In this document: piece after piece, positions 5,157 through 23,074 of the stretch
How positions within the stretch are numbered: position 1 is the first letter of the stretch
How the letters are laid out: each line of letters starts with the position of its first letter
Assembly (NCBI RefSeq): GCF_003344885.1
Contig: NZ_CP031155.1
Coordinates: 1,516,001-1,580,000 of the forward strand
From: Altererythrobacter sp. ZODW24
GTDB taxonomy: Bacteria > Pseudomonadota > Alphaproteobacteria > Sphingomonadales > Sphingomonadaceae
DNA: 64,000 nt
Direction: 5' to 3'
Translations under genes and position numbers: made by a program
The notes under the pieces: model-generated
Database searches by the model: none
The model's input: only the letters and a program-made list of their open reading frames with translations
Told to the model about the DNA's origin: nothing

Positions 5157-5189
5157 ATGAATTTTGAGTGTACTCGGCATGCCGGTTAA
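5157..5189 (+). other. Ten-codon open frame overlapping the start of the O-antigen ligase gene
   Basis: The best-placed ribosome-binding site here, GGAAGG at 5145-5150, sits six bases before an ATG at 5157 that opens a frame of only ten codons (MNFECTRHAG, TAA). This frame overlaps the likely start of the downstream gene in another frame. It may be a short upstream frame that tunes translation, or the site may serve the TTG at 5164 with a long spacer. Confidence 0.3.
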
Positions 5190-6606
5190 TAGTGCTTTGC
5201 GTGACAAAAGCGTTCTTGGATTGCTGGCATTCCTTCTATTCGCCTTTATTCTGGGCGGCGGGTCGCGATATGACATCCTTTCGTTGCCCATCTTACGCGG
5301 CGGAGCGATCCTGTTTGCTGCAGCTGCGCTTTATTCAATAACCCGCAGTGATTTGAGCGCCTACCGGTCCTTGGTGATCCTCTTTGGCATGTATACGCTT
5401 TGGATGATCATTCAGCTTATACCCCTGCCGCCTGGCATCTGGACGGCAATGCCGGGCCGCGAACTGGAAGTGCAAGCCGCCGAGGCAGTTGGGCTCGCTC
5501 AGCCATGGCGCCCGATCAATACGGTCCCTTGGCGCGGGACCAATGCTCTCCTTGCTCTGACCGTTCCATGGGCTTTGATTCTGATAGCCGCACGAACACA
5601 GCTGTCGCGCCAGAACCCTATTTATCTCGCTATCGCCTGTATTGGGATCTTCAGCGCCGTGATGGGCTTCTTACAAATTCTGGGGCCGCCGAGTGGGCCG
5701 CTCTATCCATATCGGATCACAAGTGGCGACAGTGCAAACGGCCTATTTTCAAATCGTAATCATCATGCAGCGTTCCTCGCATGCTGCCTGCCAATGATCA
5801 CATTACTTGTTCTTCAGAAAACACAATCGAGTGAAAAGAAGCGGACGCCAAAAGGCCGCGGCTTGAAGATCGACCCGTCAATCATCATTGCGGCCATGGC
5901 TGCCTTCTTGATTGTCGCAGGAATTCTGACCACCGGCTCACGGGGCGGAATGCTGGTAGGTATATTGGCCATCGTCGCCTCCTTCGGCTTATTCATTACC
6001 GACAACCGCAGGCGTGGAGCGCTTACTGGCCGCAAGTTCGGTGCGATTTTGTTCGGGTTCGGCGGTATCATGACGTTAGCTATGATTGCAGGATACGTCC
6101 GGCTTAACGTAGGCGTGCAACGTCTGACCGAACTTGACCAGTCGAGTGAACTGCGGTTCAAAGTGTGGCAGCCAATTGCCAACATCGCGGGTCAATATAT
6201 CCCGTTGGGATCCGGTTTCGGCAGCTTTGTCGAAGTCTACGAGATATCCGAACCCGAGGCTCTGTTAGGCCCCAGCTATCTCAATCACGCTCACAACGAC
6301 TATCTGGAGGTCGCGATGACCGGCGGACTTCCCGCTCTCGCAATCTTGGCCGTCGCAATGGTCCTTTTCCTGCGTACGACTTGGCGCACGCTGCGCAGCG
6401 CCCGCGGCGTACTGGTAGATCGGACCCTTGCACTAATGTCGGCGATTAACATCGCCATTCTGGCCATATTCAGCCTGTTCGACTATCCCCTAAGAACCCC
6501 ATCCCTATCGGCTTTCTTTGTCCTATCCGTTATGTGCCTAATTTGGGCATCTCGCGATAAACACGAGGTCAGGGAAAACAGTAATTCAAGGATCGCAACT
6601 TCGTGA
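5164..6606 (+). CDS. O-antigen ligase/polymerase family protein (Wzy/WaaL-like)
   Basis: A 480-residue polytopic inner-membrane protein with about ten hydrophobic segments. It shows the O-antigen ligase family (PF04932) signatures: TGSRGGMLVGILA in the middle and the periplasmic-loop motif NHAHNDYLEV near residues 375-385. Members polymerise polysaccharide repeat units or ligate chains to an acceptor. The start is uncertain: TTG at 5164 is the first in-frame start, and ATG at 5179 is an alternative. It opens a plus-strand operon; the next gene (Wza-like) starts at a GTGA overlap. A second polymerase-like gene exists at 16684, so one of the two may act as a ligase. Confidence 0.85.
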   Translation: MSVLGMPVNSALRDKSVLGLLAFLLFAFILGGGSRYDILSLPILRGGAILFAAAALYSITRSDLSAYRSLVILFGMYTLWMIIQLIPLPPGIWTAMPGRELEVQAAEAVGLAQPWRPINTVPWRGTNALLALTVPWALILIAARTQLSRQNPIYLAIACIGIFSAVMGFLQILGPPSGPLYPYRITSGDSANGLFSNRNHHAAFLACCLPMITLLVLQKTQSSEKKRTPKGRGLKIDPSIIIAAMAAFLIVAGILTTGSRGGMLVGILAIVASFGLFITDNRRRGALTGRKFGAILFGFGGIMTLAMIAGYVRLNVGVQRLTELDQSSELRFKVWQPIANIAGQYIPLGSGFGSFVEVYEISEPEALLGPSYLNHAHNDYLEVAMTGGLPALAILAVAMVLFLRTTWRTLRSARGVLVDRTLALMSAINIAILAIFSLFDYPLRTPSLSAFFVLSVMCLIWASRDKHEVRENSNSRIATS

Positions 6607-7337
6607 CGACACCTTCAGGTTTTTCGGCAACAAAGCTTCTTTTGATCAGTGCCTTGTGTGTATTCGCCAGCGGCTGCGCCAGAGATCGGGTCTATGCCGG
6701 CTCGCCCGCAATTGAAGCGATCGACGGCGACACTTTGCCCGCCCCTACGCGCGCCGATGTGGCGGCGGGTGAGCGCCCCTATCTGATGGGGGCCTTCGAT
6801 ATTCTGACAATCGACGTCTTTGGAATCGACGAACTCAAGCAGCGCAAGGTCCAGGTCGATGCGAGTGGCAGGATCAGTTTTCCGCTGATCGGCGGCGTTC
6901 AAGCCGCTGGACTGACGCCTGTCGAACTTGCCCGTGAAATAGAATCGCGCCTTCGCGGCGAGTTCATCCGCGACCCGCAAGTAACGATCAACCTCGATGA
7001 AACCGTCAGTCAGGTTATCACTGTAGATGGTCAAGTTAACCGACCAGGCCTTTATCCAGTGGTTGGTCGAATGACCTTGATCCGCGCTGTGGCACGAGCT
7101 GGCGGCACTGGTGAATTCGCTAAGCTCGAAGATGTGGTGATCCAGCGCAACGTCGATGGCCAGAAGTACATCGCGCTCTACAATCTTCAGGCCATTCGTC
7201 AGGGCAATTATGGTGATCCGGAGGTTTTTGCCCATGATATTGTAATTGTTGGCGATTCCCCAAGCCGCAGGCTCTTTCGCGACGTTATCAGCGCATCCGG
7301 CCTAATCGTTGGGCCAATCGTTGCTATTCTACGCTGA
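6603..7337 (+). CDS. Polysaccharide export lipoprotein (Wza-like)
   Basis: A 244-residue protein with a lipoprotein signal peptide ending in the lipobox ASGC, predicting an outer-membrane or periplasmic lipoprotein. A polysaccharide biosynthesis/export domain begins near residue 58 (YLMGAFDILTIDVFG) and is followed by an SLBB-like beta-grasp segment (VITVDGQVNRPGLYPV). Members form the periplasmic/outer-membrane conduit for capsular or exopolysaccharide. It is shorter than E. coli Wza, as is common in alphaproteobacteria. The start is a GTG that overlaps the upstream stop by four bases. The tyrosine-kinase copolymerase gene follows after 33 bases. Confidence 0.92.
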   Translation: MTTPSGFSATKLLLISALCVFASGCARDRVYAGSPAIEAIDGDTLPAPTRADVAAGERPYLMGAFDILTIDVFGIDELKQRKVQVDASGRISFPLIGGVQAAGLTPVELAREIESRLRGEFIRDPQVTINLDETVSQVITVDGQVNRPGLYPVVGRMTLIRAVARAGGTGEFAKLEDVVIQRNVDGQKYIALYNLQAIRQGNYGDPEVFAHDIVIVGDSPSRRLFRDVISASGLIVGPIVAILR

Positions 7338-7370: not shown

Positions 7371-9557
7371 ATGAACCAGACAACCAACCTTCCCGCGCCA
7401 ATCACCGATAGCGAAATGAACGGCGAATATGGTGGGCGCGATCAGCTGCCGTTGCTGCTGACCTATTGGCAAATCATTAAGCGGCGCAAATGGCTAATCG
7501 CGGCGGTCTTGCTGCTTGCTCTGGCTGCTGGTGTGGTGCTTACACTGCTGGCAACACCGACATATACAGCCAAAGCGCGGATCGAGATCCAACGCGAACA
7601 GCAAAACGTAACCAACGTTGAAACGCTGGAAGACTCAACCGGCGGCAACAGTCTGGAATTCTATCAGACGCAATATGCATTGCTGCAATCTCGCAATTTG
7701 GCGGAGCGCGTTGCGCGCCAATTGCGGCTGGCGGACAATCAAGCCTTCTTCGAAGCGCACGGTTCCGACCTGACGGTGCCAGAGGTTGGAACCGGTCGCC
7801 GTGACAGCAATCGCCGGCTCGACCGCGCCACTCGTATCCTGCTCAACAACATCAGCGTCGATCCGGTGCGCGGCTCCAGTCTTGTCGACGTCAGCTATAA
7901 CAGCGCGACACCGGCAATTTCTCAGCAAGTCGCCAATGTTTGGGCAGAGCAGTTTATCGAAGAGAGCATTGCGCGCCGCTTCGAATCAAGTGCGGATGCG
8001 CGCAAGTTTCTTGAAACGCGGCTTGCAGATCTTCGTTCGAAACTGGAAGATTCAGAACGGGCGCTCGTCACCTATGCCGATCAGAAAGGTATCGTGACTG
8101 TCGGCACGTCAACTGCCGGCGCAGAAAACAACTCAACGAACCGTAGAACGCTTACCTCCGATGATCTGGTCGCGCTGAACACTTCGCTCGCTCAAGCAAC
8201 CGCTGATCGGATCGCTGCGCAGAGCCGTTTAGCCAATAGCAGCAACAGCGCCGAGGCACTATCCAACCCGACCCTTACCGGTTTGCGCCAACGGCTCGCA
8301 GTTCTCGAGGCGCAATACGACGAAATGATGGTGCGCTTCGAACCTGGCTATCCCGCGGCACGGGCGTTGGACGAACAGATCAAATCCATTCGAAACTCTA
8401 TGGTCCGCGAGGAATCGCGAATTGCCGGATCGATCCGCAGTCAATTGCGTGAATCTCAAGCCCGTGAGAGTGGGCTGAAGGCCCAAGTGACAGCATTGAA
8501 GCAGGAAACGATGTCGGAACGCAATGACGGCATCCAATACAATATTTACCAGCGCGAAGCCGATACCAACCGCCAGCTCTATGATGCCTTGCTGCAACGC
8601 TACAAGGAATTGGGCGTAGCGGGCGTAGGCGTCAGCAACATCGCGATTGTTGACGAAGCAGAACGCCCCGGCAGCCCATCGTCGCCAAACCTGATGTTCA
8701 ATTTGATCCTCTCATTGCTAGCAGGAACAGTGCTCGCAGGCGCCGGCGTTTTGGCGCTCCAGCAGGTTGACGAAGGACTGCGTGAACCAAACGACGTTAA
8801 AACCCGCCTTGGTCTTGGCTTGCTGGGTGCTACACCAAGCACAGTAGAGGGCCGCGACGAGATCGTCGAAGAGCTGCTTGACCCCAAATCCGGGCTCTAT
8901 GAGGCCTATCTTACGATTAAGTCGAACCTTGGATTTGCGACGGATCACGGTGTGCCGCGCAGTATTATGGTCACCAGTACACGCGAATCAGAAGGTAAGA
9001 GCACGAGCTCCCTAGCGATTGCAACTGTGCTGGCGCGAACAGGGTCGAGCGTAATTCTGATCGATAGCGACATGCGTTCGCCATCCCTGCAAACGCTGCT
9101 CAAGACCGAAAATACGCAAGGGTTGAGCAACTATCTGTCGGGTCAGGACGATTGGCGCGATCTAGTAGAAACAAGCGAAATCAATAACTTGTCCATAATG
9201 ATGGCTGGACCCATGCCGCCAAACGCAGCCGAGCTGCTCAGCGGTTCGCGTATCAGTCAGATAGTCAAAGAACTTGGCGAGCACTTTGACCATGTAGTCA
9301 TCGACGCACCGCCGTTGCTGGGTCTGGCCGATGCCACATTGATCGCCCAATCGGTCGAAGGCAGCGTGGTTGTCATCGAATATGACCGAGTGCCCATCCG
9401 CGGCTTGCAGCAAGCAATCGACAGATTGCGCGGAGCGAGACGTCCAATCTTTGGCGCAATCGTAACCAAAATGTCCGAATCAGATTCTGCTTACGGATAT
9501 GGATATGGATACGGATACGGATACGGATCTGACAGAGACGAGACCGACGAAAAATGA
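7371..9557 (+). CDS. Polysaccharide copolymerase with tyrosine autokinase domain (Wzc/ExoP-like)
   Basis: A 728-residue BY-kinase. The N-terminus has a Wzz domain with a first membrane helix near residues 38-58 and long periplasmic coiled coils (about 190-410). A second membrane helix near 440-465 precedes a cytoplasmic kinase. Walker A (ESEGKSTSSLA, near residue 540), Walker A' (VILIDSDMRSP) and Walker B (VVIDAPPLLG) are all visible. The C-terminus carries six Tyr-Gly repeats (708-719), the probable autophosphorylation cluster. Wzc proteins control chain length and export through cycles of phosphorylation. It is coupled to the next gene by an ATGA overlap. No dedicated Wzb-type phosphatase is seen nearby. 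Confidence 0.94.
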   Translation: MNQTTNLPAPITDSEMNGEYGGRDQLPLLLTYWQIIKRRKWLIAAVLLLALAAGVVLTLLATPTYTAKARIEIQREQQNVTNVETLEDSTGGNSLEFYQTQYALLQSRNLAERVARQLRLADNQAFFEAHGSDLTVPEVGTGRRDSNRRLDRATRILLNNISVDPVRGSSLVDVSYNSATPAISQQVANVWAEQFIEESIARRFESSADARKFLETRLADLRSKLEDSERALVTYADQKGIVTVGTSTAGAENNSTNRRTLTSDDLVALNTSLAQATADRIAAQSRLANSSNSAEALSNPTLTGLRQRLAVLEAQYDEMMVRFEPGYPAARALDEQIKSIRNSMVREESRIAGSIRSQLRESQARESGLKAQVTALKQETMSERNDGIQYNIYQREADTNRQLYDALLQRYKELGVAGVGVSNIAIVDEAERPGSPSSPNLMFNLILSLLAGTVLAGAGVLALQQVDEGLREPNDVKTRLGLGLLGATPSTVEGRDEIVEELLDPKSGLYEAYLTIKSNLGFATDHGVPRSIMVTSTRESEGKSTSSLAIATVLARTGSSVILIDSDMRSPSLQTLLKTENTQGLSNYLSGQDDWRDLVETSEINNLSIMMAGPMPPNAAELLSGSRISQIVKELGEHFDHVVIDAPPLLGLADATLIAQSVEGSVVVIEYDRVPIRGLQQAIDRLRGARRPIFGAIVTKMSESDSAYGYGYGYGYGYGSDRDETDEK
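9492..9527 (+). repeat. Six tandem Tyr-Gly codon pairs at the kinase C-terminus
   Basis: Six consecutive 6-bp units of the form TAY-GGA encode (YG)6 at residues 708-719 of the Wzc-like kinase. The units differ only in the third base of the Tyr codon. Tyrosine clusters at this position are the autophosphorylation sites of BY-kinases. The near-identical hexamers make the array liable to slip-strand length change, which would alter the number of phosphorylatable tyrosines without shifting the frame. Confidence 0.85.
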
Positions 9558-10771
9558 ACCTGAAGTTCTTCCGGAGCGCGTCATCCAAGGGGCAAAAGCA
9601 CAAGGGTAGCTGGTTGAAGGTAGCCGTCTGTGCGATCGCCGCATTAACCGCTTCAGTCACCACCGCAGCCCTCACGTACCGCCAAACCGCGCAGAAAACT
9701 TCGCCTCTGATCGCCCTGTGGATGTCACCGGGCAACGCCAAGGCCAACAACGTTATGGCCAAGCTGGTTCTGCGCGAAGGTGGCTTGGAAACTGATCCCA
9801 AGGCCCTCGCCTCCTTCTCGCAACGGTCAATAGAAACGCTAGCCCTCAACCCGGAGGCATTGAGCGTTGCCGGGATTGCCGACACGTTCGCAGGAAAAAC
9901 CGATGCTGCACGAGAAAAGTTTCGCCTGAGCGAAAAGATGAGTCGCCGCTACGGTATTACGAGCATTTGGTTGTTCGAGGACCAAATTAAGGCTGGGAAT
10001 ATTTCCGAGGGCCTGGCCTTGCTGGATCGTGCTTTACGCATCCAAGACAGCCTCCAGGCCACCGTCTTTCCGACTCTCATTCCAGTCATAAGCAATCCAG
10101 GTGCAGGCGCAGAGATTGCTCCATTGCTCGCCGAAGGGTCCGATTGGACCCAGGATTTCGGCGCCTATGCTGCAGTGACACCAGCAGCCGCCCCTGCACT
10201 GGCCAAATTGGTAGAAGCGCATCCGGAAAGCGCAGTAATTCTTGACGACACACGTCGCCGGCAAATCGTAGAAACACTTTTCACGGCAGATGAATTTGCC
10301 TTGGCGGGTCAGATGTACGACCGCTTCAATGGCAGCAAGCGATCAGGTCTAAGTTTCGCCGACCGGGGTGATTGGCGACCGTTCGATTGGGAATTAGGTG
10401 CCAGCGGCACATTGTCCGTATTCGATCAGTCAGGCCGAAAGGGCATTGAATTTACAATCGATGGAGGGGGCGAGCAACTGATCGCCTCCCGGATGCTCAC
10501 ACTTAGTGCTGGCCAATACACCTTTTCCGCTCGTGCCGCAGTGCAGGAACGTGATTTGGCACAGCTAGGGCTGCGGGTTCGGCTATCTTGCGCAAGCCAG
10601 CCATCAAACCGAATCGCGCAATTCAGCTGGTCAAGCGGCACCGCTCAGACATTAAGCACCGCTTTTACCGTCCCCAGCGGTTGTCCACTGCAGGCGATTG
10701 AAGTGATCTCTTTGGGGCAGCGTAGCAGCACCAGTGGCAGCCTGTCAGATCTGATCATTGATCCAGTCTAA
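9554..10771 (+). CDS. Unrecognised membrane-anchored protein, helical repeats plus C-terminal beta-sandwich
   Basis: A 405-residue protein I cannot assign to a named family. It has a basic N-terminus and one hydrophobic segment near residues 20-42, suggesting an inner-membrane anchor with the rest in the periplasm. Residues about 65-160 look like TPR-type helical pairs (LALNPEALSVAGIADTFAG, then LALLDRALRIQ). The C-terminal third (about 275-405) is beta-rich, with WRPFDWELG, a LSAGQYTFSARA strand pair and two cysteines, resembling a carbohydrate-binding jelly roll. It overlaps the Wzc-like gene by four bases and shares a TAATG with the sulfotransferase that follows. Context suggests a role in polymer assembly or modification; this is inference. 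Confidence 0.75.
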   Translation: MNLKFFRSASSKGQKHKGSWLKVAVCAIAALTASVTTAALTYRQTAQKTSPLIALWMSPGNAKANNVMAKLVLREGGLETDPKALASFSQRSIETLALNPEALSVAGIADTFAGKTDAAREKFRLSEKMSRRYGITSIWLFEDQIKAGNISEGLALLDRALRIQDSLQATVFPTLIPVISNPGAGAEIAPLLAEGSDWTQDFGAYAAVTPAAAPALAKLVEAHPESAVILDDTRRRQIVETLFTADEFALAGQMYDRFNGSKRSGLSFADRGDWRPFDWELGASGTLSVFDQSGRKGIEFTIDGGGEQLIASRMLTLSAGQYTFSARAAVQERDLAQLGLRVRLSCASQPSNRIAQFSWSSGTAQTLSTAFTVPSGCPLQAIEVISLGQRSSTSGSLSDLIIDPV

Positions 10772-11544
10772 TGATTGTTTCTGACGACCGTAATTTTATC
10801 TATGCTCGGATTCCCAAGACTGCCAGCACGAGCGTCTCTGCCGCTCTTGAGCCATACCGGCGCAAGGCTGACGCCGCATTAGTTGGGCGGATTGGCCGCA
10901 GATTACTGCCAAAATCGGCGCATCCAGCTCTGGTCAATTTTCGCGCGCATTCGCATTGGGGTTTGCAGGCCGCGCGCGAGGTTATGGGCGAAGAGTTCTT
11001 CTCACGCGCGACAAAATTCACAGTAGCGAGGCATCCGTTTGCTTGGATCACTTCGCTCTATAATCACGTTCTCCGCATGGAGAACGATGCGGACTTCAAG
11101 CGTGTATTCGCACCTGTTTTTGAGCAGAGCCAGAGCCTGAATACGTTCATCGGATCGCTGGAAAGTCGTCCGATCCCGCCGCAATCTGCGCTACTGGTGG
11201 ATTACGACGGGAATATGCTCGCCGATCACGTCGCCCGGGTAGAACTGCTGGAGGACGAAATTCGTCCGATCTTCGCCGCTTGCGGAATCGAGGCAGCGAT
11301 ACCTGCGCTCAACCGCGGCACATATAGCGCGGCGGAGGGTCTGTCGGCACATTCGATGACCCTGATAAAAAGCATCTATGCAGTGGACTTCGAGATGTTC
11401 GGTTATGACAATCAGGGCCCAGATGGCCCAGTGACGCTGTCGAGCACCCTTGCCAAGCCGCTTGGCCGCCACCTGCGATCAATGGGCGCGCTGGATTTCA
11501 GCCCTTGGGAGCCGATGGCCAGCTTGCAAGTCGCTGCGGATTGA
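10771..11544 (+). CDS. Sulfotransferase family 2-type protein (first of five)
   Basis: A 257-residue cytoplasmic-type sulfotransferase. The PAPS 5'-phosphosulfate loop is IPKTASTS (residues 14-21) and the 3'-phosphate segment is ARHPFAWITSLYNHV (86-100). The C-terminal IKSIYAVDFEMFGYD matches the YxxDFExFGY ending of sulfotransferase family 2. These enzymes transfer sulfate from PAPS to sugar hydroxyls or amines. The start shares a base with the upstream stop (TAATG), so the gene is the last of the export operon starting at 5164. Its acceptor cannot be read from the sequence; an exopolysaccharide sugar is the simplest inference. Confidence 0.85.
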   Translation: MIVSDDRNFIYARIPKTASTSVSAALEPYRRKADAALVGRIGRRLLPKSAHPALVNFRAHSHWGLQAAREVMGEEFFSRATKFTVARHPFAWITSLYNHVLRMENDADFKRVFAPVFEQSQSLNTFIGSLESRPIPPQSALLVDYDGNMLADHVARVELLEDEIRPIFAACGIEAAIPALNRGTYSAAEGLSAHSMTLIKSIYAVDFEMFGYDNQGPDGPVTLSSTLAKPLGRHLRSMGALDFSPWEPMASLQVAAD

Positions 11545-14421: not shown

Positions 14422-15234
14422 CTATCTCGGGAACGTATATCCGTGCGCTTCGATAACAGCCCGGTCAAGCTGCGACACTAATGCGATAGAAGCATCATCG
14501 TAGTAATAGTCAGCTGGCTTGTGGCTTGAGCTGTTTGTCCGGCTAATGCGCAGACTCTCAGCGGTCTCTGATATTCCCATCGCGGCCAACGCCTCCGCAA
14601 CATCAGCCTCGAGAGATTCGGTGCGGACGAAGTGGTTCGCTGCCAAATATTTGGCTCGGTAAGCTGCGGCATCATCCACTGATCTGATCTCTGCGCGATG
14701 CTGAGTCCAATCTGACGCGCGGCTACCAACTTCAAGATAGCGGGCAGTCATTAAGCCGCAGCTGTCGGCAACCGGCAGTGCCGAGAAATCTTCTCCCGTT
14801 TGACGCGAGCCAGGACGGGAATGAAGATGCGCAAGCCATGCCCGGAAAGCGATCGGATCTTCGGCATCCTGGTAAAATTCACGCCACACATCTGCAGACT
14901 TTCCGGGGATCGCAGCCAAATGCGCAGCCGCCAAGCCCCATGTAGAAGGCCGAGCGCCATGCCGGCCGATAATCTCTTTGATGGAAGCGCTTCGCTCTGA
15001 GGTGAGATATGACCATATCGAACCCTCGTTTTGGCAGCCGTAAGCCCATAACGAGACGTACCAATCCCAAGGATTGCGTATACCGAACAATACATGAGGG
15101 CGCTCGAACCCATCAGCGATGCCGTTATGCTTGCCGTGCTTGGTGAGTTGATAGTGCCGGCTGAGCAACTTCGCGACGTGGTTGCCGCCGGTCTTCTGCA
15201 GATGAAGAAAGATAAAATCGTCAGAATATAACAT
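14422..15234 (-). CDS. Sulfotransferase-like protein (third of five)
   Basis: A 270-residue protein. The N-terminal FLHLQKTGGNHV (residues 9-20) is the PAPS-loop variant of the sulfotransferase family 2 group, and GIRNPWDWYVSLWAYG (51-66) is the 3'-phosphate segment. The C-terminus (YYYDDASIALVSQLDRAVIE, then HGYTFPR) matches the YYDDE-FGYEF ending of that group. It is the last gene of the long minus-strand operon that begins at 25124, 31 bases after the flippase. Acceptor unknown; sulfation of the repeat unit is inferred. Confidence 0.8.
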   Translation of the reverse strand: MLYSDDFIFLHLQKTGGNHVAKLLSRHYQLTKHGKHNGIADGFERPHVLFGIRNPWDWYVSLWAYGCQNEGSIWSYLTSERSASIKEIIGRHGARPSTWGLAAAHLAAIPGKSADVWREFYQDAEDPIAFRAWLAHLHSRPGSRQTGEDFSALPVADSCGLMTARYLEVGSRASDWTQHRAEIRSVDDAAAYRAKYLAANHFVRTESLEADVAEALAAMGISETAESLRISRTNSSSHKPADYYYDDASIALVSQLDRAVIEAHGYTFPR

Positions 15235-15265: not shown

Positions 15266-16675
15266 CTAGTCTATTGGCTTCACGGGGTCCACGGCTCCAT
15301 CATCGGGCCGCATCGGATCCCTTCGTGATGTCACCGGCGGCATCGCTTGGACAGGGGTTCTTATATGCACCACAGCCGAGAAAATGTCGCTGCGGACGCC
15401 GATCAATCGCCTCACCATCCACCAACGCTGCATCTGAATAACAACCAATGTAACGCTGCTTGCGATCGCTGCGCCCATGGCAAGCATACTCGGGATCAAG
15501 GCAAAGTTGATCGAGACATTGATGACTGCTGCCACCACCCCGGTCTGCAAGGTCCGCTTTTCAAAGCGAGACATATTCAGGAGCAAGGCGGTGGGGCCCA
15601 TGAATGCGCTGAACAGTTGCCCGATGCAGAGCACCAGAATGACGGGATAGACGTCACCATATTGCCCGCCGAACATGCGGCCAATCAGCCACGGGCCGAA
15701 GATCACGATCCCGACTACCGTGGCAATCGCAAATCCCGTCGAAGCGAGTGTCGCCAAAGCAATACTGCGCTGCATCTCGGCCGTATCGCCGCGCTCATGG
15801 GCGAAGGCGATACGGGGAGCAATCACGCTGTTCAAAACCGTTTGAGCAACGAGGATCAGGCTAACGATTTGCACGGCGATATTATATCCAGCAACAGCAA
15901 TGGTAGTGCTGAGAAAGCCGATCATTGCGATATCAATCCGGCGATTGATGATCCGCACCCCCTTTACCAGACTGATCGGGATAAGGCTCTTGATCCAAGG
16001 GCTGATATCCATATCTGCACGGGAAAATTCAAAACTACCGATCTGCCGCCTGACGATCCTGAATGCCCCGACCGCAGACCAGACGAAGCACAAAGCCACA
16101 GCAAGCACATGTGCCGCCATCACATAGGGCGCGCTGACGTTCCCCGAATAGGCCAGCATCGCCACAAAGGTGAGCAATAGAGCAGGCCGGAAGATACTGT
16201 CGGGCAGCGCGAATTGAACGGGCTTTTCAAAGCCGAGCAATATGCCGCGCGCCCAGTTCATCAGAGCAAGCGGCAGCAGCAAAGCCAAGGTCCATATCTG
16301 CAGAGAGAATCCGATTTTCTCGGATGGAATACCTAGCCCCCAGTATATCATCGCCGCGGCCAGCGTCAGCGCGAATGTCCCCAGCACCAAGGCGAGAACC
16401 CAGACAGCGATGGCGATGATAGCCCGATGGTTTTCACTGGCGCGGTAGCGGGCAATTTCCCGCATCATCAAGGTCGGCAGCCCCATCTCAATAGGTAAGG
16501 CTATGATATTGGCGATCCCAAACGCGAAAATATAAGAACCATATTCGGCCGCCGGGAGAATATTGGCGAGCAACACCGTGGTGATGAAGCCAATCCCAAT
16601 GTTGGTGAACCCGATCACCAGCATCGCCACTGAAGCGCGGCGGCGGAGCAGCTGTTTCAACGCATTTTGAAACAT
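15266..16675 (-). CDS. Oligosaccharide flippase (Wzx-like, PST/MOP superfamily)
   Basis: A 469-residue polytopic protein with about 12-14 hydrophobic segments. The N-terminal region (IGFTNIGIGFITTVLLANIL, then AAEYGSYIFAFGIAN) is typical of polysaccharide transporters of the MOP superfamily, and IDIAMIGFLSTTIAVAGYN matches the central conserved loop. It should move lipid-linked repeat units to the periplasmic face. It is the only flippase in the window, so it probably serves the whole locus. The polymerase-like gene ends eight bases upstream and the sulfotransferase at 14422 follows downstream. Confidence 0.9.
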   Translation of the reverse strand: MFQNALKQLLRRRASVAMLVIGFTNIGIGFITTVLLANILPAAEYGSYIFAFGIANIIALPIEMGLPTLMMREIARYRASENHRAIIAIAVWVLALVLGTFALTLAAAMIYWGLGIPSEKIGFSLQIWTLALLLPLALMNWARGILLGFEKPVQFALPDSIFRPALLLTFVAMLAYSGNVSAPYVMAAHVLAVALCFVWSAVGAFRIVRRQIGSFEFSRADMDISPWIKSLIPISLVKGVRIINRRIDIAMIGFLSTTIAVAGYNIAVQIVSLILVAQTVLNSVIAPRIAFAHERGDTAEMQRSIALATLASTGFAIATVVGIVIFGPWLIGRMFGGQYGDVYPVILVLCIGQLFSAFMGPTALLLNMSRFEKRTLQTGVVAAVINVSINFALIPSMLAMGAAIASSVTLVVIQMQRWWMVRRLIGVRSDIFSAVVHIRTPVQAMPPVTSRRDPMRPDDGAVDPVKPID

Positions 16676-16683
16676 TTACCGGC

Positions 16684-18210
16684 TCAGCTTGGCGCCAGAA
16701 TTGGCGCCGAACGCCCGAGCGCCCGACCTCCGTACCTGTCGACTTGTTTAATGATGTAGAGATAGATGAAGAAGATCGGCACTGCCGTCACAAACCCGTT
16801 GATCAAATAGCCATTGGCCCCAATCAATGCCAACTGCATGCCGATCAGAACGGCAGGGAAGTAGACGAAGTTCTCTCGCCTCATTTCCGGCATTATCAAC
16901 TTCACCATTAAGGCGAGAATGGCGCCAATTATCGGCGTGCCGAACAGGATGCCCAGCCAACCGAATTGCCAATATAAATCGCCATATATACTGATGGGCA
17001 TGTTGTTGTTCATTCGCCCGGTCACGAGAAAATAGAATTTCTTACCCGGTGGTTCGATGATAGGTTTGTCTGGCCAGATTACGCGCGGAATAAAGATAAT
17101 CGGCAGTGAATCTAACGAATGCGACTTCTCTCCGCTGTCGTGCAGTTGCATCGCGAAGGCTTGCCTGCCGCTGGCATCAAGCCGTGTCCACCAACGCTGC
17201 GATCCTTCATAAATACTGCGCTGCGAGACCTCGGGCCGGTCAACCACATATTCTGTAACGATTGCAGCACGTTTCGAAAAATCGAGCGCTGCGTCATCTG
17301 AACCACCAGCATAGCGGGCAAAGGTCACCATTGGCTGTGCCATGACGTATGCGGCGACAATAATTGCCGCAAAAACAGTGGTCATTATGATGTTACGCCG
17401 CGCCAAGTAGTAGCCAGCTAGCGGGAACACCATCGCCAGAACGATCCAACGCTTTGAAAAGGCAAGTGTGGTCAGACCGAGATCAACCGACCAGAACAGA
17501 AGGAATATCGCAATTGCTGTGGGTCCGCTGCGAATAGCTACATAGGCCCAAAGCCCGAACCCGATCGCAGCAAGAGCATTAATCTGTGTCAAAATACCCG
17601 GTACCGTCAGGTCAATCAGACCCCAGATTGACGGGAAGTAGATCAGATATTTGAACGCCAACCCTGCACCGGTGAACACAGCCGCGAGAACAGTCGGCGA
17701 AAACATGATCGCTCTTGTGCCTTTTACGGAAGCGGTGAACCTGTCCGACTTTGCTCCGAACATAAAAGCCATACCCACATAGATGCCGAGCTGTCCGGCC
17801 AAACTCAGGGTGTTCGCCTGATTGACCTGCCACGCATCAGCAGCTGGCGCGCGCAGCGCAAGGTAGGTCTTTGTGCCTTCATTGCCGAAATTGTAAGCCA
17901 GCGGTCCAAAGCCCAAAAACACGGCTGACGAAAGCAGAAACAGGGTGGATGGCGCCCACACATTGTACGCATCGAACTTGATCAGCGAATATGCGCTTGC
18001 CGAACTCAGCAAGAGGAAACCGATCAGCACAGCCGCGTTGAAATTCATCATCGCTTCGCGCGAAAGGTCGATGAGTGACCCGGCGCTGGCAATGACGAGC
18101 AGGATCGCTACGCCAATTGATTGAATGGTAAATACACGGGCCGATTTTGCGAGGTACTCGGTTTCGCTAGAGGCTGAACTGGAACGGCGGTTCTTCGCGA
18201 TTGCGGTCAT
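16684..18210 (-). CDS. Polysaccharide polymerase-like membrane protein (Wzy type)
   Basis: A 508-residue protein with about 11-12 membrane segments and a large periplasmic loop near residues 300-390 (YAGGSDDAALDFSKRAAIV, then SLPIIFIPRVIWPDKP and ISIYGDLYWQFGW). The IPRxIWPDKP and GDLYxxFG elements are typical of oligosaccharide repeat-unit polymerases. The position between a sulfotransferase and the flippase supports Wzy function. Wzy proteins are too divergent for a firm call from sequence alone. The start overlaps the upstream sulfotransferase stop by four bases (ATGA). Confidence 0.78.
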   Translation of the reverse strand: MTAIAKNRRSSSASSETEYLAKSARVFTIQSIGVAILLVIASAGSLIDLSREAMMNFNAAVLIGFLLLSSASAYSLIKFDAYNVWAPSTLFLLSSAVFLGFGPLAYNFGNEGTKTYLALRAPAADAWQVNQANTLSLAGQLGIYVGMAFMFGAKSDRFTASVKGTRAIMFSPTVLAAVFTGAGLAFKYLIYFPSIWGLIDLTVPGILTQINALAAIGFGLWAYVAIRSGPTAIAIFLLFWSVDLGLTTLAFSKRWIVLAMVFPLAGYYLARRNIIMTTVFAAIIVAAYVMAQPMVTFARYAGGSDDAALDFSKRAAIVTEYVVDRPEVSQRSIYEGSQRWWTRLDASGRQAFAMQLHDSGEKSHSLDSLPIIFIPRVIWPDKPIIEPPGKKFYFLVTGRMNNNMPISIYGDLYWQFGWLGILFGTPIIGAILALMVKLIMPEMRRENFVYFPAVLIGMQLALIGANGYLINGFVTAVPIFFIYLYIIKQVDRYGGRALGRSAPILAPS

Positions 18211-21195: not shown

Positions 21196-22394
21196 TATCG
21201 CCCGACTTCCAGCAACAAGTCGTTCCAGCGGGCAAATATCGCGTCGCGCGCCAACGACCGCTGGTGATAGCTGCGAACCCGTGCGCAGATTTCATCGCGG
21301 TGGTCCTGTGCGGCGATTGCGCGATACATTTGAGCCACTGCCTCCGGAGTGGCAGCTTCGGCCACTTCGCCGAGCCCTTCCGAACGCACCATTTGTGCAA
21401 GCTCGCTCTTGGATTCGACCACCAGTGCCAGCGGCACACCAAGGCCGAGGTAGGTGAATGTCTTCGACGGGTAAGAAACAGACACAACGCCTTCCGCCAA
21501 GGAAACCAATCCGGCATCGGCATCAGCGATGACATGCCGCGCCTCAGCATAGGGTAACAGATCGTGGAAAATCACGTTCCCAAGCCCCGCCGCAGCGGCT
21601 TTCAAGCCAGCTTCGGAATCGCCATTGCCAAGGAACATCAATTGAAAGTGCGGCAGCTCGCTTTCGACTATCTTTGCCGCTTCAACGAACAGACCAAGAT
21701 TCTGAAACCGGCCCAAATTTCCCGCGAAAATCAACCGCGTCGCACCTGCCTGCTTCAATGGCAGGCCTGACCTGCCGCCCTCGCTTGCAAAGCTCGCGAT
21801 TTCGAAATTATTGATAATCGCAATCTTGTCCCGAGCAGGCGGACGTGGGCGCGCCATAATGGTTGCCGCCATGTCGCCTGACAACACAACGATCCGCGCC
21901 GCGCGGCGCATGGTTTGCATGTCCAGCCACCGGAGCAGGCGGAACAGAAAACCGCGGCCCAACCGCGAGCCGCTGACCCGGGCAACTTCGGGATGAATAT
22001 CCTGTAAATGGTAGATGAACTGCTTCCCGCTCAACTGCGCGGCAAGCGACGCAGTCCAACCGGCGAAAACCGGTGGAAAGCTTGCTGCAGTCACGATCTC
22101 GGCACGGCTGAGAAGGACGTGGAAGAACAATTGGACGCAGTAAATTGCTACGTTCACACCGCGGATCAGCGGGCGTTCTTTCGCTTCCCTAAAGGTACGA
22201 ACGCGTTTGACGCTGAAGCCGTCAATTTCCTCAGCCGCGGCGGTGAGCCGTGCATCGGCAGCATAACTCGGCTGCCCAGCAAAGACCGATACGCCATGCT
22301 TGTCGGCCGCCATTGCCCCCGCAAGCGAACGCAACATGGCGCCATATGGCGGCGAATCTGGCCAGAAGTAGCGATGGGTGAATAGAATTTTCAC
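21195..22394 (-). CDS. Glycosyltransferase family 4 protein (WbuB-like)
   Basis: A 399-residue enzyme resembling WbuB-type GT4 transferases: it starts ILFTHRYFWPDSPPYGAMLR, has FIYHLQDIHPEVA in the acceptor domain and RLIFAGNLGRFQNLG in the donor domain. The usual EX7E is replaced by EGVVSVSYPSKTFTYLGLG, as in WbuB, where SYPSK binds the donor. WbuB transfers L-FucNAc in E. coli O26, which is notable because UDP-L-FucNAc synthesis genes lie at 27768-31072; the link is inference. It overlaps the phosphoglycosyltransferase stop by four bases. Confidence 0.88.
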   Translation of the reverse strand: MKILFTHRYFWPDSPPYGAMLRSLAGAMAADKHGVSVFAGQPSYAADARLTAAAEEIDGFSVKRVRTFREAKERPLIRGVNVAIYCVQLFFHVLLSRAEIVTAASFPPVFAGWTASLAAQLSGKQFIYHLQDIHPEVARVSGSRLGRGFLFRLLRWLDMQTMRRAARIVVLSGDMAATIMARPRPPARDKIAIINNFEIASFASEGGRSGLPLKQAGATRLIFAGNLGRFQNLGLFVEAAKIVESELPHFQLMFLGNGDSEAGLKAAAAGLGNVIFHDLLPYAEARHVIADADAGLVSLAEGVVSVSYPSKTFTYLGLGVPLALVVESKSELAQMVRSEGLGEVAEAATPEAVAQMYRAIAAQDHRDEICARVRSYHQRSLARDAIFARWNDLLLEVGR

Positions 22395-23074
22395 ACCGCA
22401 CCGACGTCCATGTCGCTAAAGTCGAACCAAGGCTCTGCTTGGTCGGCTTCGCGCGGAAGAGGGAAGTTGCGCCGGCCGATCACGATTGCGATGATTACTG
22501 CTGCTGTCCGCACCATCACACCAACATCGCTAAGCAGCGTCCGGTGCTCCAGATAGGCGCGCTCAAGCGCGAGCTTTGGCTGCAAGACATGGTCACGGTA
22601 ACTGCCCTCCGGATCATCATCAGACAGCAACGCATTGGCATGCGTATAGCCGAATATCGCGCCCGGGCTGGTTACGCCGGGTCGGATCGCGAGCGTCTCC
22701 TTCATCCAAGGGGTGTAATCACGCTCGACGATTACAACGGATTCTGGCCTTGGCCCAACAATCGCCATTTCACCGCGAATTACATTGAGGAGTTGGGGCA
22801 ACTCATCGATCTTACTGCCGCGCAAAAATCGTGCGAGCGGAAAGACACGCGTATCGCCAGGCGCCGTAATCTCGGATCCAGCCTCTTGCCGGATATGCAT
22901 GGTGCGGAATTTGTACATTCCGTATGGCTGCCCGTTCAGGCCCATCCGCTGGGCGCTATACAGCACCGGACCTGGAGAGGAGAGTTTGATCCCGAGCGCG
23001 GCAAGCACCGACAACGGCAAAGTCAGTACTAGGACCACCGCAGCTATAACAATGTCGAGCAGCCGGCTTATCAT
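22391..23074 (-). CDS. Initiating sugar phosphotransferase (PglC/WcaJ C-terminal type)
   Basis: A 227-residue monotopic phosphoglycosyltransferase with one N-terminal membrane helix (about residues 8-28). Conserved elements are SSPGPVLYSAQRMGLNGQPY, YKFRTMH, SKIDELPQLLNVIRGEMAIV and GPRPES; the DE of KIDELPQ is the catalytic dyad. It transfers a sugar 1-phosphate to undecaprenyl phosphate and so starts the repeat unit. It is the short PglC-type form lacking the four extra helices of WcaJ/WbaP. It lies two bases after the DegT aminotransferase gene, suggesting the aminotransferase makes its donor sugar. The C-terminal tail (about 150-227) is longer than in PglC. Confidence 0.92.
   Translation of the reverse strand: MISRLLDIVIAAVVLVLTLPLSVLAALGIKLSSPGPVLYSAQRMGLNGQPYGMYKFRTMHIRQEAGSEITAPGDTRVFPLARFLRGSKIDELPQLLNVIRGEMAIVGPRPESVVIVERDYTPWMKETLAIRPGVTSPGAIFGYTHANALLSDDDPEGSYRDHVLQPKLALERAYLEHRTLLSDVGVMVRTAAVIIAIVIGRRNFPLPREADQAEPWFDFSDMDVGAV

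Follow-up and report, generated by a model that had tools for sequence, protein, structure and literature searches.

A 64,000-nucleotide stretch of the genome of Altererythrobacter sp. ZODW24 (assembly GCF_003344885.1, contig NZ_CP031155.1, positions 1,516,001 to 1,580,000), hereafter called the window, contains a gene (9554..10771, + strand, ATG start) encoding a membrane-anchored protein of 405 amino acids (aa) with tetratricopeptide repeats (TPR) and a predicted C-terminal jelly roll. The protein is probably an overlooked part of a machine that builds and exports a surface polymer, and it is proposed here, with moderate confidence, to be a periplasmic glycan-handling adaptor whose TPRs dock on the Wzy-Wzc-Wza complex and whose jelly roll touches the glycan. 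The machine is of the known Wzx/Wzy type, and the gene itself is so far unnamed. A conserved subunit that has docking and sugar-binding-like parts, and that is fused to Wzy in two genomes, offers a handle on how chains are loaded from Wzy to Wzc, in a group of bacteria that makes industrial gums; Wzy-Wzc cooperation and chain loading are described as still open for Escherichia coli (PMC12881504).

Family extent and gene order

The start of the gene at 9554 overlaps the end of the Wzc open reading frame (ORF) at 9557 (ATGA), and its end overlaps the start of a sulfotransferase gene at 10771 (TAATG), as a first-pass annotation made from the sequence had noted. In another genome of the same genus (G001), 322 of the 405 residues are identical, and the differences are distributed over the three codon positions as 73/37/222. 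This dominance of third positions indicates a real gene under purifying selection, and membership in a large protein family likewise shows that the gene is real. Neither Pfam nor NCBIfam gave a significant match to the window protein, in agreement with the annotation's statement that no named family applied. Neither the protein nor the tallies over 60 family members returned a match to the known Wzx/Wzy families (Wza, Wzb, Wzc, Wzx and Wzy), a sequence search of the Protein Data Bank (PDB) with the protein alone returned just designed PPR proteins (E 0.05-0.07), and the titles and abstract openings retrieved from the literature do not name a family of anchor, TPR and jelly roll.

With the protein alone as query, 64 of 197 related genomes proved to have a homologue. 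Matches to the full alignment, in 158 of 195 and 155 of 289 genomes, were set aside because many were generic TPR cross-hits of about 25-40 bits that inflate the counts, and the range is more soundly given by the C-terminal alignment alone. The latter matched 78 of 117 genomes of the window's taxonomic family. In a class-wide draw of 279 genomes it matched six, one weakly (G411), and in a phylum-wide draw of 349 it matched 25, to which other classes contributed one clear (G616) and one weak (G737) match. A collection of 57 loci with named genera comprised Sphingomonas, Novosphingobium, Erythrobacter, Porphyrobacter, Sphingorhabdus, Sphingopyxis and similar bacteria, while in a viral collection none of the 25 stretches showing the pattern was confirmed as a relative. 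The window's own genome contains a second family member, located within a second Wzy-Wza-Wzc operon (L101, G000:C1:1753500-1771500).

The most consistent feature of the family is its position. Of 68 places found besides the window's own, the best 60 were fetched, and in 57 of these the gene directly follows Wzc; of the 56 with an assigned start the two genes overlap in 28 and lie within 40 bases of each other in 55; the starts of the relatives were assigned by script, mostly as those nearest the Wzc stop, which biases the overlap counts. The named set shares at least six genomes with these 60, and in it Wzc lies directly upstream in 47 of 57 loci; the other ten are of the Sphingorhabdus/Sphingopyxis type (L155-L162, L164 and L167), and in them the gene is intact. 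Outside the window's taxonomic family, the order Wza-Wzc-gene occurs in all nine fetched loci, excluding the weak matches of G411 and G737, although the genes do not always touch, and a relative of Wzy is present in eight of the nine. The same Wza-Wzc-gene order is found at L103 and L104. Conservation beside wza and wzc homologues, suggested by the first-pass annotation as a check, is thus strong.

The association was also counted from the side of Wzc in the 117 family genomes, among the matches listed. Clade Wzc proteins were defined as those scoring at least 340 bits against the window Wzc, a line set after viewing the list, and the count excludes family matches weaker than about E 2e-12, Wzc proteins under 107 bits and the two matches of G001. 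A family member lies within 3 kb of 91 of the 96 clade Wzc genes, and immediately downstream of 86 (match ends -120 to +250 bases apart). Extending the distance to 40 kb gives 94 of 96; the remaining two Wzc matches end about 220 bp or less from the edge of a contig. Conversely, none of the 38 distant Wzc genes (100-260 bits) has a member within 3 kb, and of nine scoring 260-340 bits two do. Eight of 101 family matches have no listed Wzc within 3 kb.

At three inspected loci of the Sphingorhabdus/Sphingopyxis type (L157, L159 and L164) the neighbours of the gene look like unrelated genes.

Domain anatomy and predicted structure

An AlphaFold2 model built from a 58-sequence alignment (pLDDT 88.2, pTM 0.81) comprises an N-terminal helix, an alpha-solenoid and a beta-rich C-terminus; it was used in place of a single-sequence model, dropped at pLDDT 43.3. 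The helix spans residues 18-49 (9605..9700, +) and includes a membrane anchor predicted from the model and from hydropathy over 60 members; a second membrane-like stretch was seen in one of the 60. The solenoid (residues 51-259; 9704..10330, +) is of the TPR superfamily according to the model, to the family profile, which matches TPR proteins in the PDB, and to fold searches. The best solenoid match in the VIA structure comparison was the TPR region of OGT (Z 16.5, rmsd 3.4, 157 aligned residues); the VIA-align rows cover residues 36-249 and barely include the jelly roll. Some members also match Pfam TPR models, the commonest of which was found in 7 of 60.

The C-terminal domain (residues about 277-404; 10382..10765, +) is predicted to adopt a jelly roll fold resembling carbohydrate-binding modules (CBMs) of family CBM4. 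The ninth row of the Foldseek search was the CBM4 structure 1gui_A (E 3.0e-6, TMt 0.60, rmsd 3.9 over 153 columns), another, 2y64_A, scored TMt 0.61, and lower rows included further CBM4, CBM16 and CBM61 modules and a hyaluronan-binding module. Judging from the length of the match and from the modelled strands, which span residues 279 to 404, the C-terminal domain would be the part matched by the CBM4 structures, and at the level of predicted fold it appears to be a CBM4-type jelly roll.

Three residues of this domain, Trp279 (codon 10388..10390, +), Cys346 (10589..10591, +) and Cys377 (10682..10684, +), are unchanged in all 60 aligned members. The window protein thus carries the marks of the family, namely W279, C346 and C377 together with adjacency to Wzc. 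The two invariant cysteines probably form a disulfide; a third, C26, lies inside the membrane helix and outside the conserved columns. Three features together suggest that the bulk of the protein is periplasmic: the single helix, an excess of positive charges on its N-terminal side, seen in 40 of 60 members, and the two invariant cysteines. The most conserved stretch of the protein is residues 113-180 of the solenoid, where the conserved R131 and R132 lie, with a mean pairwise identity of 0.267 versus 0.19-0.22 elsewhere, which fits, as a weak argument, a docking face on a constant partner.

The first-pass annotation had described a single helix at the N-terminus, a helical region resembling TPRs and, at the C-terminus, a beta-rich domain with two cysteines that looked like a carbohydrate-binding jelly roll; all of these reappear in the alignment-based model, the cysteines being C346 and C377. 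The unrecognised component that it postulated is real and unnamed, and no clear match to a known export component turned up.

The fourth gene of the sanxan operon

A member of the family is present in Sphingomonas sanxanigenens NX02, where Wu et al. (2017; PMC5399355) described the operon NX02_02920-02935 with ssG (02935, Wzy), ssD (02930, Wza) and ssC (02925, one-piece Wzc); a table in that paper gives SsG, SsD and SsC as 459, 199 and 751 residues. The locus L176 (genome G059) contains ORFs with start codons of 459, 199 and 751 residues, followed by a family member of 412 aa, and the next predicted ORF beyond it lies on the opposite strand; the 199-residue ORF corresponds to one of many possible starts. 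Since the lengths and order match the published operon, the family member is almost certainly NX02_02920, the unnamed fourth gene of the ssG-ssD-ssC operon. The four genes have the same order as in the window, and in the available description of the operon three are named and the fourth is left without a function (PMC5399355).

According to the same paper, deletion of NX02_02920~02935 as a whole operon "or of each gene" led to the Ss- phenotype with reduced sanxan (PMC5399355), which provides a hint of genetics for a role of the gene. A later paper names the operon ssGCD (PMC10884872), and PMC5399355 was the sole mention of NX02_02920 returned by a literature search. An operon described as holding three export genes thus almost certainly holds one more that had escaped attention, and this matters for efforts to transfer or reconstruct pathways of this kind. 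The gellan genes gelM and gelN were also considered as counterparts, and the literature search for them returned nearly all hydrogel papers.

Proposed role and alternative explanations

According to the proposed mechanism, the protein would be an inner-membrane-anchored periplasmic subunit dedicated to one clade of Wzx/Wzy-dependent machines. Its TPR solenoid would attach to a constant partner within the Wzy-Wzc-Wza complex. The CBM4-like jelly roll, held together by the putative Cys346-Cys377 disulfide, would touch single repeat units or the chain as it grows, and would hold or steer the glycan on its way from the polymerase Wzy to the Wzc/Wza channel. The genomic support for this role is strong, the model is good and the NX02 deletions give a hint of genetics; we infer carbohydrate binding.

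Several observations weigh against this interpretation. In nine relatives of the Sphingorhabdus/Sphingopyxis type the gene is not adjoined by a Wzc (a tenth, L157, is cut by a contig end). Genome G008 pairs two Wzc copies with a single listed member, which means that one of the 94 clade Wzc genes with a member within 40 kb shares the member of another copy, and 3 of the 38 distant Wzc genes have a member within 40 kb, again among the matches listed. Regarding the fold, the first eight Foldseek rows were AspH, a protein of TPR plus oxygenase (TM 0.25-0.27, rmsd about 17). A deviation of this size means that the TPR and the jelly roll do not superpose jointly, and no solved protein fits the whole model. 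Likewise, none of the 60 members matched a CBM family by sequence at E 0.01, so that the likeness is at the fold level only, and the jelly roll is no better conserved than the rest, with a mean pairwise identity of 0.196 versus 0.220 and 0.190 for the two ends of the TPR region. The topology signal is modest, since lysine and arginine are more numerous before the helix in 40 of 60 members and equal in 15, and the hydropathy of the helix falls below the 1.6 line in 7 of 60. Finally, the available text of PMC5399355 counts four polymerisation and export proteins, SsS, SsG, SsC and SsD, and NX02_02920 is not among them.

The adaptor is expected to share a complex with Wzy, as suggested by adjacency and by two gene fusions. 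In G078 a single ORF of 899 residues (stop to stop) has a Wzy-like N-terminus and matches the family hidden Markov model (HMM) over residues 506-891, and in G010, a genome of a different genus, an ORF of 853 residues (stop to stop) with a Wzy-like N-terminus matches over 457-853, so that both hold nearly the whole family unit at the C-terminus. Two further candidates were dropped: an apparent fusion at L072 consists of two adjacent genes, and an 853-aa frame at G023:C5 (L110) had no family match by the HMM. Short divergent forms with a membrane helix and TPR and without a jelly roll occur directly after Wzy in genomes G016 and G043 (L177, 5296-6192, - strand; L178, 5239-6171, - strand), and the short form, when read from a likely internal ATG, begins at the Wzy stop. 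The fusions and short forms would also suit a detached C-terminal periplasmic module of Wzy that acts with the polymerase (or ligase) alone, sets acceptor choice or chain termination and plays no part in export through Wzc and Wza, and in distant loci such as L184, L186, L189 and L190 it is Wzy that lies next downstream of the gene. Nevertheless, the commonest adjacent gene is Wzc, since 86 of the 96 clade Wzc genes have a family member immediately downstream, and such a purely Wzy-directed module is considered somewhat unlikely.

A comparison with E. coli Wzc raises another alternative. On a glycan array, the periplasmic jelly roll of that protein (JR, residues 112-204) showed binding, and colanic acid fell when it was deleted (PMC12881504). 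In the alignment, E. coli Wzc has 111 residues in the region 105-215 versus 43 in the window Wzc, with the gap in the same place, and 125 Wzc proteins from loci bearing the gene have 30-53 residues there (126 of 136 such loci gave a Wzc, one under 600 aa was dropped, and at least six genomes are counted twice). These machines thus lack the domain in cis. The family protein could substitute for it in trans, as a module that loads repeat units on a Wzc from which the domain was lost or in which it was always missing; the next gene bringing a jelly roll is suggestive in this respect. However, 37 comparison Wzc proteins, 35 of them without an adjoining gene, are likewise short in the region (22-65 residues); these include L221 and L222, which belong to the gene-bearing clade and lie at contig edges, and seven of intermediate score. 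Absence of the insert thus does not predict the gene, and this explanation is rather unlikely. The JR is an insert within Wzc, whereas the window jelly roll is part of a separate anchored protein with TPR, and the two are likened by description, not by sequence or fold. For the adaptor interpretation, the JR serves as a precedent for a glycan-contacting jelly roll in this kind of machine (PMC12881504).

Because this control does not discriminate, the broader adaptor interpretation alone is adopted here. A bolder form of it, offered tentatively, is that Alphaproteobacteria and some other Pseudomonadota may possess a four-subunit machine made up of Wzy, Wza, Wzc and a glycan-reading adaptor. The jelly roll built into Wzc in E. 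coli would there form a separate subunit, docked by TPR, sometimes fused to Wzy and exchangeable from polymer to polymer.

It is improbable that the protein is a surface-retention or ligation factor keeping finished polymer on the cell. Such a role would recall the name of Wzy_C, taken from O-antigen ligase, and Cluster B of Sphingomonas sp. LM7, the cluster with a Wzc-family autokinase, which was concluded to make a cell-surface-associated polysaccharide (PMC11340318); what the available text of PMC5399355 reports for the NX02 operon, however, is sanxan yield and the viscosity of the fermentation broth, and not attachment.

A partnership with the sulfotransferase, in which the protein would hold a sulfated polymer as the first-pass annotation had supposed, is scarcely credible: the junction overlaps by TAATG in the window and reads TGATG in G001, and the cluster contains a second sulfotransferase, but a sulfotransferase relative adjoins the gene in one of the 60 loci (L031, of the same genus) and in none of 67 further loci. 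As this neighbour was seen only in the window's genus, binding of sulfated polymer cannot be the general role. The annotation's overall picture accordingly stands for the anchor, the TPR, the jelly roll, the lack of a named family and the linkage to wza and wzc, and falls for sulfation.

Comparison with other export systems

AlgK, PelB and PgaA are periplasmic TPR scaffolds for polysaccharide export that belong to other systems and are attached as lipoproteins or through a barrel; they are not known to contain a comparable jelly roll. Stray TPR profile matches linked one family member each to the PgaA and BcsC models. PrsT (TIGR02917) is the TPR protein of the XrtA/PEP-CTERM polysaccharide/exosortase system; it was matched by 10 of 60 members at E 0.01 (best 4e-10) and not by the window protein, and these matches probably reflect generic TPRs. 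The cellulose synthase machine, which is not Wzy-dependent, shows a likeness in that BcsB has periplasmic jelly rolls resembling carbohydrate-binding modules and BcsC has TPRs, the first of which (TPR#1) contacts the BcsB jelly roll (PMC11379886). The flavodoxin-like domains of BcsB and the outer-membrane barrel of BcsC described there are both absent from the model of the window protein.

Genomic neighbourhood in the window

The three genes upstream encode a Wzy_C-type polymerase/ligase (5164..6606, +; PF04932, E 8.4e-18), which has the same place in relatives, a Wza-type outer-membrane polysaccharide export protein (6603..7337, +; Poly_export, E 6e-23, and SLBB) and a Wzc-type co-polymerase/tyrosine autokinase (7371..9557, +; Pfam Wzz, GNVR and AAA_31, and NCBIfam). 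Among the scanned ORFs of the cluster, that at 5164..6606 alone gave a significant Wzy_C match. Downstream lie the sulfotransferase (Sulfotransfer_2, 10771..11544, +; PF03567, E 6.8e-10), a Polysacc_synt (Wzx-type) protein (15266-16675) and an initiating Bac_transf protein (22391-23074), the last two assigned by Pfam. With several glycosyltransferases and two sulfotransferases also present, the surroundings look like a Wzx/Wzy polysaccharide cluster.

A fifth gene often found in the operons of relatives encodes a small secreted-looking protein of about 100-130 aa, with a motif that is rich in arginine and asparagine and ends in RNRIDR.YDP.AN. It lies just downstream in L032 (after 5598), L035, L048, L120, L121, L124, L136, L150 and others; it is absent at the window, and one query against the window's genome found none. 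The polysaccharide cluster further contains a protein of 508 aa (16684-18210, - strand) that matches no Pfam family at E 0.001, and the window also encodes one of 270 aa (14422-15234, - strand) that has no significant Pfam or NCBIfam match and is conserved in G001.

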